A stretch of DNA of 64,000 nt from Hymenobacter lapidiphilus (GTDB lineage: Bacteria > Bacteroidota > Bacteroidia > Cytophagales > Hymenobacteraceae), in the NCBI RefSeq assembly GCF_013377885.1, contig NZ_JABKAU010000017.1, positions 1 through 64,000 on the forward strand, in the 5' to 3' direction. Shown piece after piece: positions 10,262 through 56,310 of the stretch (its first letter is position 1; each line of letters starts with the position of its first letter). A model generated the notes under the pieces. It saw only the letters and a list, made by a program, of their open reading frames with translations, had not been told where the DNA came from and did no database searches. The translations under genes and the position numbers were made by a program.

Positions 10262-12046
10262 ATGATGAAACACACCTATGATATGGGCCTGATTGGCAAC
10301 TGCGCCTTTCTGGGCCTGATTGGCACCGACACGGCCGTGCGCTGGCTCTGCTGGCCCCGCTTCGACAGTAGTTTCGTATTCGGCTCGCTGCTCGATGAGC
10401 AGAAGGGCGGCGAGTACAGCATCCGGCCCGTAACCGAGGGCGGCTTCGAGAGCCGGCAGTACTATGCGGCCAACACCAACGTGCTCGTAACCGAAATAAC
10501 CACCGACGAGGGCCGCTACCGGGTTACCGACTTCGCTCCACGCTTCTCGCAGTACGAGCGTTATTATAAGCCGCTGATGTTTATCCGGAAGGTGGAGCCG
10601 CTGGAGGGCACGCCCCGCGTGCGGGTAACCTGCCGGCCAGTGGCCGAGTACGGCGAGCAGCAGCTCAGCCGCCGCCGCAGCTCCAACCACATTGCGTTTC
10701 TGGGCATGGAGGAGGAAATCCGCCTCACTACCAACCTGCCCCTGACTTACGTGCTCGACGAGGAAGCTTTCGGCCTCAACGAAACCAAATATCTGGTGCT
10801 CACCTACGGCGCGCCGCTCGAAGCCCCATTGGAAAGCACCTGTGAAACCTTTCTGCAGAACACGCTCGGCTACTGGCGGCAATGGGTGAAGAGCACCAGC
10901 ATCAGCAACTTCCACCAGCCGGCCGTTATCCGCTCGGCGCTGGCCCTCAAAATGCACCAGTACGAGGACACCGGAGCTATTATTGCGGCCAGCACCACCA
11001 GCCTGCCCGAGGCCCCCGGCAGCACCCGTAACTGGGACTACCGCTACTGCTGGATGCGCGACACGTTCTACACGCTCACGGCCTTCAACAACATCGGCCA
11101 CTTCGAGGAGCTGGAGCGCTACTTCCATTACATCGCCAACATTTCGAGCAGCATTACGGGTAAATACCAGCCGCTGTACGGCATCAGCGGCGCTTCGCAG
11201 CTCACAGAGCAGGAGCTGCCGCTGGCCGGTTACTTAGGCAACCAGCCCGTGCGCATCGGCAACGACGCTTACACCCACATCCAGAACGACGTGTATGGGC
11301 AGGTGCTGGTGGCTCTGCTGCCGCTGTACGTGGATGCGCGCTTCGTGAACCCCGAGCACCGCAACCCCGAAAAGCTGGTGTACGAGGCCCTGCATCAGAT
11401 TGAAGCTACCATGGACCAGCCCGACGCCGGCCTGTGGGAGTTCCGCAATCTGGCCCAGCGCCACTGCTACACCTACCTGTTCCATTGGGCCGGCAGCCAC
11501 GCCGCCTGCCACGTAGCCCGCTCGCTGGGCGATACTGAGATGGAGGCGCTGGCCTCCCGCCTCATGCAGGCCGCCGCCGACCGTATCGAGCAGTGTTTCA
11601 GCGAAGAGCAGCAAGCCTACACCAATGCCATCGGCTCGCCCCACCTCGACGCCAGCACCATTCAGCTGATCATGATGGGCTACCTCGACCCGGCCTCCGA
11701 GCGGGCCGCCCGCCACCTCGAAGCCCTGGAGCGCGCCTTGAAAACGCCCGAAGGCCTGTTCTACCGCTACCGCCACCCCGACGATTTCGGCACACCCGAA
11801 ACCACCTTCCTCATCTGTTCCTTCTGGTACGTGGAGGCGCTGGCCTGCGTGGGCCGGGTAGATGAAGCTATTACCGAGTTCGAGCACCTGCTCACCTACA
11901 CCAACCATCTGGGCCTGCTCTCGGAAGATGTGGACGCCAAAACCGGTTCGCAGTGGGGCAACTTTCCCCAGGCCTACAGCCACGTGGGCCTCGTCAACGC
12001 CGCCTTCCGCATCGCCAAAAAGCTGGATAGCCCAAGTTTCCTGTAG
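10262..12046 (+). CDS. GH15 family glycoside hydrolase (glucoamylase/trehalase type)
   Basis: About 594 residues with no signal peptide, so probably cytosolic. The N-terminal GTDTAVRWLCWPRFDSS is the typical start of the bacterial GH15 beta-sandwich. The (alpha/alpha)6 barrel has NWDYRYCWMRDTFYT at about residue 258 and the C-terminal motif EDVDAKTGSQWGNFPQAYSH. GH15 enzymes invert alpha-glucosidic bonds, and some bacterial ones are trehalases. The gene faces the trehalose synthase/phosphatase fusion tail to tail, so trehalose hydrolysis is a reasonable but unproven role. The start was placed at tandem ATGs because the upstream frame is unlike the family. The stop codon lies inside a long hairpin. 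Confidence 0.9.
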   Translation: MMKHTYDMGLIGNCAFLGLIGTDTAVRWLCWPRFDSSFVFGSLLDEQKGGEYSIRPVTEGGFESRQYYAANTNVLVTEITTDEGRYRVTDFAPRFSQYERYYKPLMFIRKVEPLEGTPRVRVTCRPVAEYGEQQLSRRRSSNHIAFLGMEEEIRLTTNLPLTYVLDEEAFGLNETKYLVLTYGAPLEAPLESTCETFLQNTLGYWRQWVKSTSISNFHQPAVIRSALALKMHQYEDTGAIIAASTTSLPEAPGSTRNWDYRYCWMRDTFYTLTAFNNIGHFEELERYFHYIANISSSITGKYQPLYGISGASQLTEQELPLAGYLGNQPVRIGNDAYTHIQNDVYGQVLVALLPLYVDARFVNPEHRNPEKLVYEALHQIEATMDQPDAGLWEFRNLAQRHCYTYLFHWAGSHAACHVARSLGDTEMEALASRLMQAAADRIEQCFSEEQQAYTNAIGSPHLDASTIQLIMMGYLDPASERAARHLEALERALKTPEGLFYRYRHPDDFGTPETTFLICSFWYVEALACVGRVDEAITEFEHLLTYTNHLGLLSEDVDAKTGSQWGNFPQAYSHVGLVNAAFRIAKKLDSPSFL

Positions 12047-12126
12047 AACCCAGAACTGAGAAAAAAAGGTGTCATTCTGAGCTCCGCTCAGAATGACACC
12101 TTTTTTTCTCAGTTCTGGGTTCTACA
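12042..12126. terminator. Long perfect hairpin between convergent GH15 and otsAB (family C core)
   Basis: An almost perfect inverted repeat with arms of about 41 bases. The core GGTGTCATTCTGAGC / GCTCAGAATGACACC is a family C hairpin. The outer arms carry three 7-base units of form AGAANNN (AGAACCC, AGAACTG, AGAAAAA) on the left, mirrored on the right. The TAG stop of GH15 is inside the left arm and the otsAB stop begins three bases beyond the right arm. T runs on both strands make it a good bidirectional terminator. Confidence 0.85.
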
Positions 12127-16894: not shown

Positions 16895-16903
16895 GTTTTT
16901 CTG

Positions 16904-16938
16904 AGCTGTTAGCTGAGAGCTTTTAGCTGTTAGCCTGA
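16904..16938. repeat. Degenerate tandem heptamers AGCTNNN, left of C-3
   Basis: Five consecutive 7-base units: AGCTGTT, AGCTGAG, AGCTTTT, AGCTGTT, AGCCTGA. They begin 10 bases after the gap stop codon and precede the family C element. A matching array lies on its other side, forming an inverted pair (GAGCTGTTAGCTGAGAGCTT against its complement near 17108). Confidence 0.75.
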
Positions 16939-16960
16939 CGTGCTGGATGAACCATACGTA

Positions 16961-17062
16961 GAACGTCATTCAGCGCGAAGCGAAGAATCTCGCGGACTAT
17001 CATTGGAATAAGTTTCCAAGTGACGGCCTGCGAGATTCTTCGCTTCGCGCTGCATGACGTTC
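16961..17062. repeat. Family C palindromic element C-3
   Basis: The arms begin GAACGTCATTCAGCGCGAAG / CTTCGCGCTGCATGACGTTC, then GAAGAATCTCGC / GCGAGATTCTTC. It sits between gap and the lipid kinase gene, with 7-base tandem units on both sides. Confidence 0.85.
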
Positions 17063-17072
17063 TTTTGTTGTC

Positions 17073-17129
17073 AGCTTTCGGCTCTCCAACGAAAAGCTGA
17101 CAGCTACAAGCTCTCAGCTAACAGCTCCA
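17073..17129. repeat. Degenerate tandem heptamers AGCTNNN, right of C-3
   Basis: Five in-register units (AGCTGAC, AGCTACA, AGCTCTC, AGCTAAC, AGCTCCA) at 17095-17129, preceded by two looser ones. The array ends eight bases before the ATG of the lipid kinase, so it forms the leader of that mRNA. Confidence 0.75.
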
Positions 17130-17136
17130 AATAAAA

Positions 17137-38300: not shown

Positions 38301-38404
38301 CTGTCATGCTGAGCGGAGCGAAGGACCTTATCCCGTAGGTACGAGTCGTTACCACGATTTTTGTTCTCTTGGGATAAGGTCCTTCGCTCCGCTCAGTATG
38401 ACAG
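38301..38404. repeat. Family C palindromic element C-6
   Basis: CTGTCATGCTGAGCGGAGCG / CGCTCCGCTCAGTATGACAG outside, AAGGACCTTATCCC / GGGATAAGGTCCTT inside. The inner arm differs from the GAAGCATCTCTACCG version, so family C has interchangeable inner stems. Between the THUMP methyltransferase and GH13 genes. Confidence 0.85.
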
Positions 38405-40323: not shown

Positions 40324-40331
40324 CACGAAGC

Positions 40332-40443
40332 TACCAAAACGGAGTAGGGTGGGAGGCTCGTCGCCGCCCGCCGTTGAACGGTCCACCTGGGATTCGTTCA
40401 ACGGCGGGCGGCGACGAGCTCCCCACCCTACTCCGTTTTGGTA
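40332..40443. repeat. Family A palindromic element A-8
   Basis: Long arms TACCAAAACGGAGTAGGGTG / CACCCTACTCCGTTTTGGTA with the CCGCCCGCCGTTGAACGG interior. The central block is CTCGTCGCCG rather than CTTGTCCCCG, a compensated variant (both arms changed). Lies between convergent GH13 and the copper-binding gene and may terminate both. Confidence 0.85.
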
Positions 40444-40464
40444 GGAGGTTTTACTGCTTTAAAG

Positions 40465-48487: not shown

Positions 48488-48560
48488 AGAAGCTGTTCGC
48501 GTCACTTTTTCGGGTTTCTGAACGCGTAGAACCCGGAAAAGGAACGCAAACAGCTTCCAA
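48488..48560. repeat. Long imperfect hairpin between mtfA and the M2 gene
   Basis: AAGCTGTTCGCGT / ACGCAAACAGCTT at the ends and TTTTTCGGGTT / AACCCGGAAAA inside, with ACGCGT near the loop. It resembles the AAGCTGTTTA termini of long family C elements but has a different interior. It may terminate the mtfA transcript. Confidence 0.6.
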
Positions 48561-56017: not shown

Positions 56018-56310
56018 TGAGCAGTTGGGACGGCGTAGAGACGCATTATTTTGCGTCTCGTCGTTGAACGGCCGGGTTGGCTACTTGAAGCTGTTTAAGA
56101 AGTCAAAGGACCGTCATGCTGAGCGGAGCCGAAGCATCTCTACCGCTTCGTAGCAGTCGTTCAACGAAGCGGCAGAGATGCTTCGGCTCCGCTCAGCATG
56201 ACGTTCTGATTGATTCCAAGTACTTCCTAAACAGTTTCCTTAACAGCAGCAACAGCAACAACGTAGAGACGCAAAATCTTGCGTCTCTACTACGCCGTCC
56301 CAACTGCTCA
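56018..56310. repeat. Composite element: family B interrupted by family C
   Basis: Outer arms TGAGCAGTTGGGACGGCGTA / TACGCCGTCCCAACTGCTCA are perfect over about 21 bases, followed inward by GAGACGCA..TTTTGCGTCTC hairpins of family B. Between them sits a complete long family C element. It fills most of the gap between GH144 and GH3 genes. Confidence 0.8.
56087..56238. repeat. Long family C element nested in family B
   Basis: Ends GAAGCTGTTTAAGAAGT / ACTTCCTAAACAGTTTC, then GTCATGCTGAGCGGAGC / GCTCCGCTCAGCATGAC and GAAGCATCTCTACCGCTTCG / CGAAGCGGCAGAGATGCTTC. Nearly the same sequence and right flank (GTTCTGATTGATTCC) as the copy near 46.2 kb. Confidence 0.85.

Follow-up and report, generated by a model that had tools for sequence, protein, structure and literature searches.

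REP dimers tagged with GTAG, which include the REPINs, are palindromic repeats in which two hairpins form a head-to-head pair around a spacer, with the GTAG tags on the outside of the hairpin arms. These repeats lie outside genes and occur together with a tyrosine transposase gene that they flank, as described in the available text of PMC3733652 and PMC3116915. REP dimers located inside longer palindromes have already been described as well (section 7 of PMC3733652, from the portion available). Another group of REP dimers, made of units in opposite orientation, has the tag CGTC with AT next to it where the stem starts, and apparently has no dedicated transposase, as far as the available part of PMC3733652 goes. 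In the Bacteroidota, the BrickBuilt MITE of Porphyromonas gingivalis has IS5-family-like ends and contains other repeats; some BrickBuilt elements are without target duplications and possibly lie nested in other mobile DNA (PMC4596501, partial text). Among the papers listed by the literature search, none dealt with these repeats in Hymenobacter; others may exist.

A GTAG dimer, a CGTC dimer and a MITE come together at one intergenic site in the DNA analysed here, a stretch of 64,000 nucleotides from a contig of Hymenobacter lapidiphilus (the window). The site is a nest of known kinds of element, and it has three layers because the MITE inserted into a GTAG dimer (family B) itself holds a CGTC-tagged palindromic dimer: a CGTC dimer lies in an IS5 MITE (family C), which lies in the GTAG dimer (Table 1). 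The initial annotation had described a family B element with perfect 21-bp outer arms that is split by a complete family C element. Both parts of this description hold, with every base of the outer arms paired and with an insert of full length that has paired ends and a CTT triplet on either side. The left end of the insert is exactly GAAGCTGTTTA, and the right end, TAAACAGTTTC, has one mismatch against a perfect inverted copy of the left end. Within the outer arms, the GTAG...CTAC tags stand on an inverted pair, 56035-56066 and 56259-56290, that is 88% complementary. For the whole block of 293 nt read as RNA, a single long hairpin of -189.1 kcal/mol is predicted (raw prediction).

Table 1. 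Features of the nested site (positions in the window)
Feature	Position	Strand	Evidence
Left outer arm of the family B host palindrome; GTAG tag at 56035-56038	56018-56038	+	21/21 complementary to 56290-56310
Left half of the GTAG REP dimer: hairpin GAGACGC...GCGTCTC and spacer, ending in the triplet CTT	56035-56086	+	Inverted-repeat pair; similar intact dimers elsewhere in the genome
Target duplication CTT, left copy	56084-56086	.	Direct repeat
Family C, assigned as a 152-bp MITE of an IS5-family element; ends GAAGCTGTTTA / TAAACAGTTTC	56087-56238	+	Ends shared with the full-length IS at G000:C56:167419-168352
Palindrome in family C: CGTC-tagged REP dimer (CGTCATGCTGAGCGGAGCCGAAGCATCTC...)	56109-56206	+	Arms of 43 nt, 95% complementary
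Target duplication CTT, right copy	56239-56241	.	Direct repeat
Right half of the GTAG-tagged REP dimer	56239-56290	+	Inverted-repeat pairs
Right outer arm of family B	56290-56310	+	Inverted-repeat pair

Family C is present in many copies in this genome. The 17-bp end pattern, with up to two mismatches, was matched 89 and 94 times on the two strands of the 4.6-Mb genome, and a reversed-pattern control gave one match on each strand, so that paired ends occur far beyond chance. From 78 sources taken among the matches listed, at least 68 distinct family C elements were read (up to three mismatches per end), and 12 of the 78 yielded no paired ends. An exact 3-bp direct repeat adjoins 51 of the 68 elements and is absent in 17, compared with 3.4 exact repeats when the flanks are swapped; flanks that match over 4 bp were found at none of the 68. 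The frequent lengths are 79, 101, 150-153, 162 and 174 bp, next to a single element of 934 bp. The ISL2 subgroup of the IS5 family has a 3-bp A-N-T target, and ANT accounts for 15 of the 51 target triplets of family C and TNA for 2. The exact end pattern was also detected in 67 of 120 genomes of the genus, including the genome studied here. A plasmid search with the MITE matched 15 records, all from Hymenobacter, and in none of these did a place cover 80% of the query.

With a length of 152 bp, the window copy cannot accommodate a transposase gene. An intact 934-bp element with the same 17-bp ends, flanked by a TTA repeat, encodes a protein of 285 amino acids that was identified as an IS5 transposase (NCBIfam NF033580, 137.8 bits, cut-off 110), with additional matches to Pfam DUF4096 and DDE_Tnp_1. 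This is the only intact close copy found in the genome; a second transposase copy, in contig C41, is 81% identical over residues 1-175 and broken into two matches. All four of the full-length elements from other species that were taken among the matches listed have the same ends and exact 3-bp repeats, and the two of these that were scanned are both IS5. Among 44 named transposase loci, 35 have paired ends of the family C type (up to four mismatches per end) and 28 of those 35 have a 3-bp repeat; many of these loci are repeated copies from two genomes, and two of the four full-length elements are probably the same loci as entries among the 44. Hymenobacter is the host of 30 of these 44 relatives.

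Ends in common with a full-length insertion sequence, a partner that codes for an IS5 transposase, a duplication of fixed length and the lack of an own transposase thus come together in family C, and judged by these sequence features it is a MITE of an IS5-family insertion sequence. It resembles the IS5 family (NF033580), as represented by ISBf6 of Bacteroides plasmids, in the transposase family, in the ends common to coding and non-coding copies and in the short duplication, and the transposase found here shares about 48% amino-acid identity with that of ISBf6. Compared with BrickBuilt, which contains a minisatellite and makes duplications of varied length (PMC4596501, partial text), family C contains a palindromic dimer and makes duplications of 3 bp. 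The site links one miniature family to a specific IS5 transposase.

The host of the insertion can be read by taking out the element C together with one CTT, which leaves a GTAG dimer of 101 bp, and nine other dimers of the same GAGACGC type measure 79-106 bp. It has GTAG tags on the outside, two inverted stem-loops and a short spacer. By similarity to a GTAG dimer of the window that is richer in GC, 40 GTAG-dimer-like places were found in the genome, this query included; fewer were found of the GAGACGC subtype, of which the window element is a member. The genome has one Y1 transposase gene (Pfam PF01797, Y1_Tnp, 30.2 bits, cut-off 23), which is bordered on either side by GTAG dimers, an arrangement that has been described for REP-associated transposases (PMC3733652 and PMC3116915, in the text available). 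These many copies, and a Y1_Tnp gene flanked by GTAG dimers, are what characterizes a REPIN family, and the sequence comparison thus points to family B being a REPIN-like, GTAG-tagged REP dimer, a likeness that is drawn from the text descriptions of the GTAG REP families rather than from stem sequences (PMC3733652, available part). Family B has probably been spread by this single REP-type tyrosine transposase. The enzyme scores 60.9 bits against the REP-associated model NF047646, below the cut-off of 80, and the dimers beside its gene are of the GC-rich subtype and not of the GAGACGC subtype, so that its link to the subtype in the window is one that we infer.

The outer arms of family B are not new in kind, since section 7 of PMC3733652, in the portion available, has dimers within longer palindromes. 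Several other GTAG dimers have outer flanks that are complementary for at most about 22 nt, and in L160, L168 and L161 this extends over about 20 nt, with sequences that differ between the copies. Complementary outer flanks of GTAG dimers are partly common to subfamilies. They may go back to an inverted duplication made on insertion, to a target that was already palindromic, to copying between arms or to subfamily sequence. Beside the tyrosine transposase gene, at positions 1016-1155 of locus L149 (G000:C67), a 14-bp unit, CCATTGACCGGTTC, is repeated in tandem, and these units are placed between the two halves of a GTAG dimer.

Family B and family C are separate units, as had been proposed: only two of the 68 family C elements are found in GTAG dimers, and the 40 GTAG-dimer-like places stand against these two. 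Examination of the junctions for a short target duplication, which had been suggested as a check, revealed the CTT repeat. The target repeat of 3 bp that adjoins family C consists of spacer sequence from the host, and on this ground family C would have arrived after family B. The earlier proposal that family C moved when family B was already in place is supported by this repeat and by a sister site, L066, at which a family C element with an AGT repeat lies in the spacer of another GTAG dimer. Between the same two flanks (91% identical), the related genome G027 has an uninterrupted GTAG dimer without family C, and L066 minus the element and one AGT aligns with G027 through the dimer, with a poorly conserved spacer. 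In terms of sequence, the pair of L066 and G027 supports, as direct evidence, the order in which the host dimer precedes family C. For this sister site, 16 genomes were searched and four were read (G027, G067, G002 and G099); G067 has a short GTAG palindrome there, G002 a CGTC-type palindrome and G099 other DNA. At the other L066 loci inspected, the two anchors did not turn up near each other, and in the relative G004 the two halves of the site match on different contigs.

The counterparts of the window site were searched in 120 genomes of the genus, one per species, and the neighbouring gene was matched (E 1e-70) in 48 of these, including the genome studied here. From 21 other genomes, 28 loci were read; for 13 of these genomes, no next gene was found within 1.5 kb, and 400 bp were read there. 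An intact family B element at this site, for which a check had also been proposed, was not present in any of the 21 genomes read; likewise, two GTAG patterns and the family C ends (up to one mismatch) gave no match there. CGTC-type motifs were observed at the counterpart in six of the 21. G004, which is 89% identical over about 20 kb, and G008, which is 92% identical in the neighbouring gene, have neither family B nor family C at the site. Both were considered as empty sites for family B and set aside, with intergenic letters too different for the edges of B to be read. From the CTT repeat and the sister case together, we infer the order at the window site, where the arrival of family C after family B is supported by sequence.

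A single explanation covers these observations, and it is considered highly probable. A GTAG-tagged REP dimer would have settled between two genes, and later an IS5 transposase, acting in trans, would have placed the 152-bp MITE into the spacer of the dimer, with duplication of the three target bases CTT. The MITE would already have carried the CGTC-tagged palindromic dimer in its middle when it was inserted. The site would in this way show which of two miniature mobile families came first.

The least improbable of the alternatives, itself unlikely, is a preference of the IS5 transposase for hairpins or cruciforms, which would make nesting in palindrome spacers a targeted event. Seven of the 68 family C elements lie between palindrome arms, with scores from 23 to 42, and 61 lie outside; for swapped flank pairs, 99.9% score 17 or less and the highest score is 26. 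Next to the window copy and L066 in GTAG dimers, the nested copies are L065, L077, L109 and L120 in CGTC-type palindromes and L116 in another repeat. An exact 3-bp repeat is present in five of the seven (CTT, AGT, AGC, AAC and AAC) and absent in L065 and L116. The copy in L116 (G000:C63:7850-8650, positions 262-515) is flanked directly by a 51-nt inverted repeat, with no direct repeat. A preference of the MITE for palindromes looked likely at seven of 68, but this number matches the share of intergenic positions that are in palindromes. Of 2646 intergenic positions sampled in the window, 244 (9.2%) pass a palindrome test that, with a score of at least 20 and crude gene calls, is slightly looser than the test applied to the nested copies, and under random intergenic insertion the probability of seven or more nested elements among 68 is 0.44. 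Compared with the rate over all positions, genes included, seven of 68 would be far too many (2e-5), but this comparison takes no account of the loss of insertions in genes. Targeting of palindromes was therefore rejected; nesting is about as frequent as expected, since palindromes are common between genes here.

Still less probable is that template switching at the hairpin made family C grow in place, or that the arms on the outside were lengthened around it. The arms of inverted repeats in this genome do look homogenised, and the 51-nt repeat without a direct repeat at L116 would fit such growth. Nevertheless, direct 3-bp repeats, fixed ends in common with a coding insertion sequence and flanks free of inverted repeats, as at 61 of the 68 sites, are signatures of transposition and are not produced by template switching. 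Growth in place is contradicted for family C overall, and it may hold for the extreme outer arms of family B. The least credible alternative, that B-C-B is one composite element moving as a unit, could draw on the second family C element in a GTAG dimer and the five in other palindromes, but it is already largely contradicted by the 61 elements outside palindromes, by the several kinds of host among the seven nested copies, in place of the same B-C-B arrangement at many sites, by the existence of the L066 host without family C in G027 and by 20 more GTAG-dimer-like places read with their flanks, none of which has family C between the arms at the lengths listed.

With the insertion of an IS5 MITE into a GTAG dimer as the preferred reading, the interest of the nest is mostly in the CGTC-type palindrome that the MITE contains and in the coordinated change of its arms. 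At 56112-56202, the CGTC tag followed by AT in the stem and the head-to-head dimer fit the description in section 6 of PMC3733652 (available part). A pattern scan of the window gave eight CGTC-type dimers, of which six are free and two are inside family C. The CGTC-type palindrome pattern, in its basic or a variant form, or a sequence close to it, is present in 61 of 67 MITE-sized copies. A large set of the CGTC dimers found here is inside an IS5 MITE, and their likeness to the described CGTC dimers is drawn from the tag and the dimer orientation (PMC3733652, available part); judged by eye, the arm module is longer than a stem of 8-9 bp with a loop of 4-5 nt and varies between copies. No published description of CGTC-type palindromes as cargo of IS5 MITEs was found in a non-exhaustive search of partly available literature. 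The IS5 MITE may be one concrete vehicle for CGTC repeats, which are reported, in the available part of PMC3733652, to have no dedicated transposase.

The inner palindrome uses interchangeable modules, such as GAGCTTGCC, GAGCGCAGTC, TCATCTGGCGTCCGCGCAGCC and others. In 37 of 53 readable inner palindromes the same module is present on both arms; 15 of the 68 elements were set aside, 12 of them without an inner palindrome or with a short one (including the 934-bp insertion sequence) and three with arms off the pattern. When modules were shuffled, a mean of 6.6 same-module pairs and a maximum of 19 in 5000 trials were obtained, and the comparison of 37 with 6.6 does not represent a probability, as the shuffling ignores relatedness. 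Copies that share an identical 26-nt spacer can differ in module on both arms, as L007, L068 and L071 do. In the group with the 26-nt spacer of the window copy, L003 and L004 are uniform for GAGCTTGCC and the window copy is uniform for GAGCGGAGCC; L002 combines an arm of one type with an arm of the other, and the arms of L005 are one letter apart. Paired change is also observed in a GTAG dimer of the window (40331-40444), in which three positions are changed identically on both arms relative to G004, among seven differences in the left arm and six in the right arm in all.

Paired change of this sort can be produced by template switching between the arms of a hairpin, a known mechanism (PMC8794818 and PMC8604942, partial text). 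It is likely that template switching keeps arms of this kind perfect, and this may perhaps include the 21-bp outer arms of the nested site. It is conceivable, though this is put forward tentatively, that the CGTC dimers have partly spread as cargo of the IS5 MITE, with exchange of a module on one arm followed by template-switch copying to the other. In such a process, exchange with another REP copy would first swap the module on one arm, and template switching would then copy the new module to the other arm; pairing in the hairpin would thereby be kept through the change of sequence. L003 and L004, L002 and the window copy would represent steps of such a swap, with the direction of change being a guess. 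Hymenobacter would be a good system for studying how palindromic repeats spread and stay paired.

Further palindromes were observed in the window. At 16896-17134, a CGTC-type palindrome (16960-17063) lies inside a longer, different inverted repeat (16896-16941 and 17089-17134), and at 12042-12126 a GTCATTCTGAGC core is enclosed by a perfect inverted repeat of 41 nt that has a loop of 3 nt. The palindrome at 38301-38404 and that in the matching gap in G004 (L143) are CGTC-type palindromes of different subtypes, which may reflect either replacement or independent insertion at one place. A palindrome of 69 bp bounded by GAAGCTGTTCGCG-type ends occupies 48489-48557. G004 lacks it and has a single CAA at the corresponding point; in the window, the triplet to the left of the palindrome is AAA, and the repeat is imperfect. 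This element probably belongs to a second, smaller MITE family.
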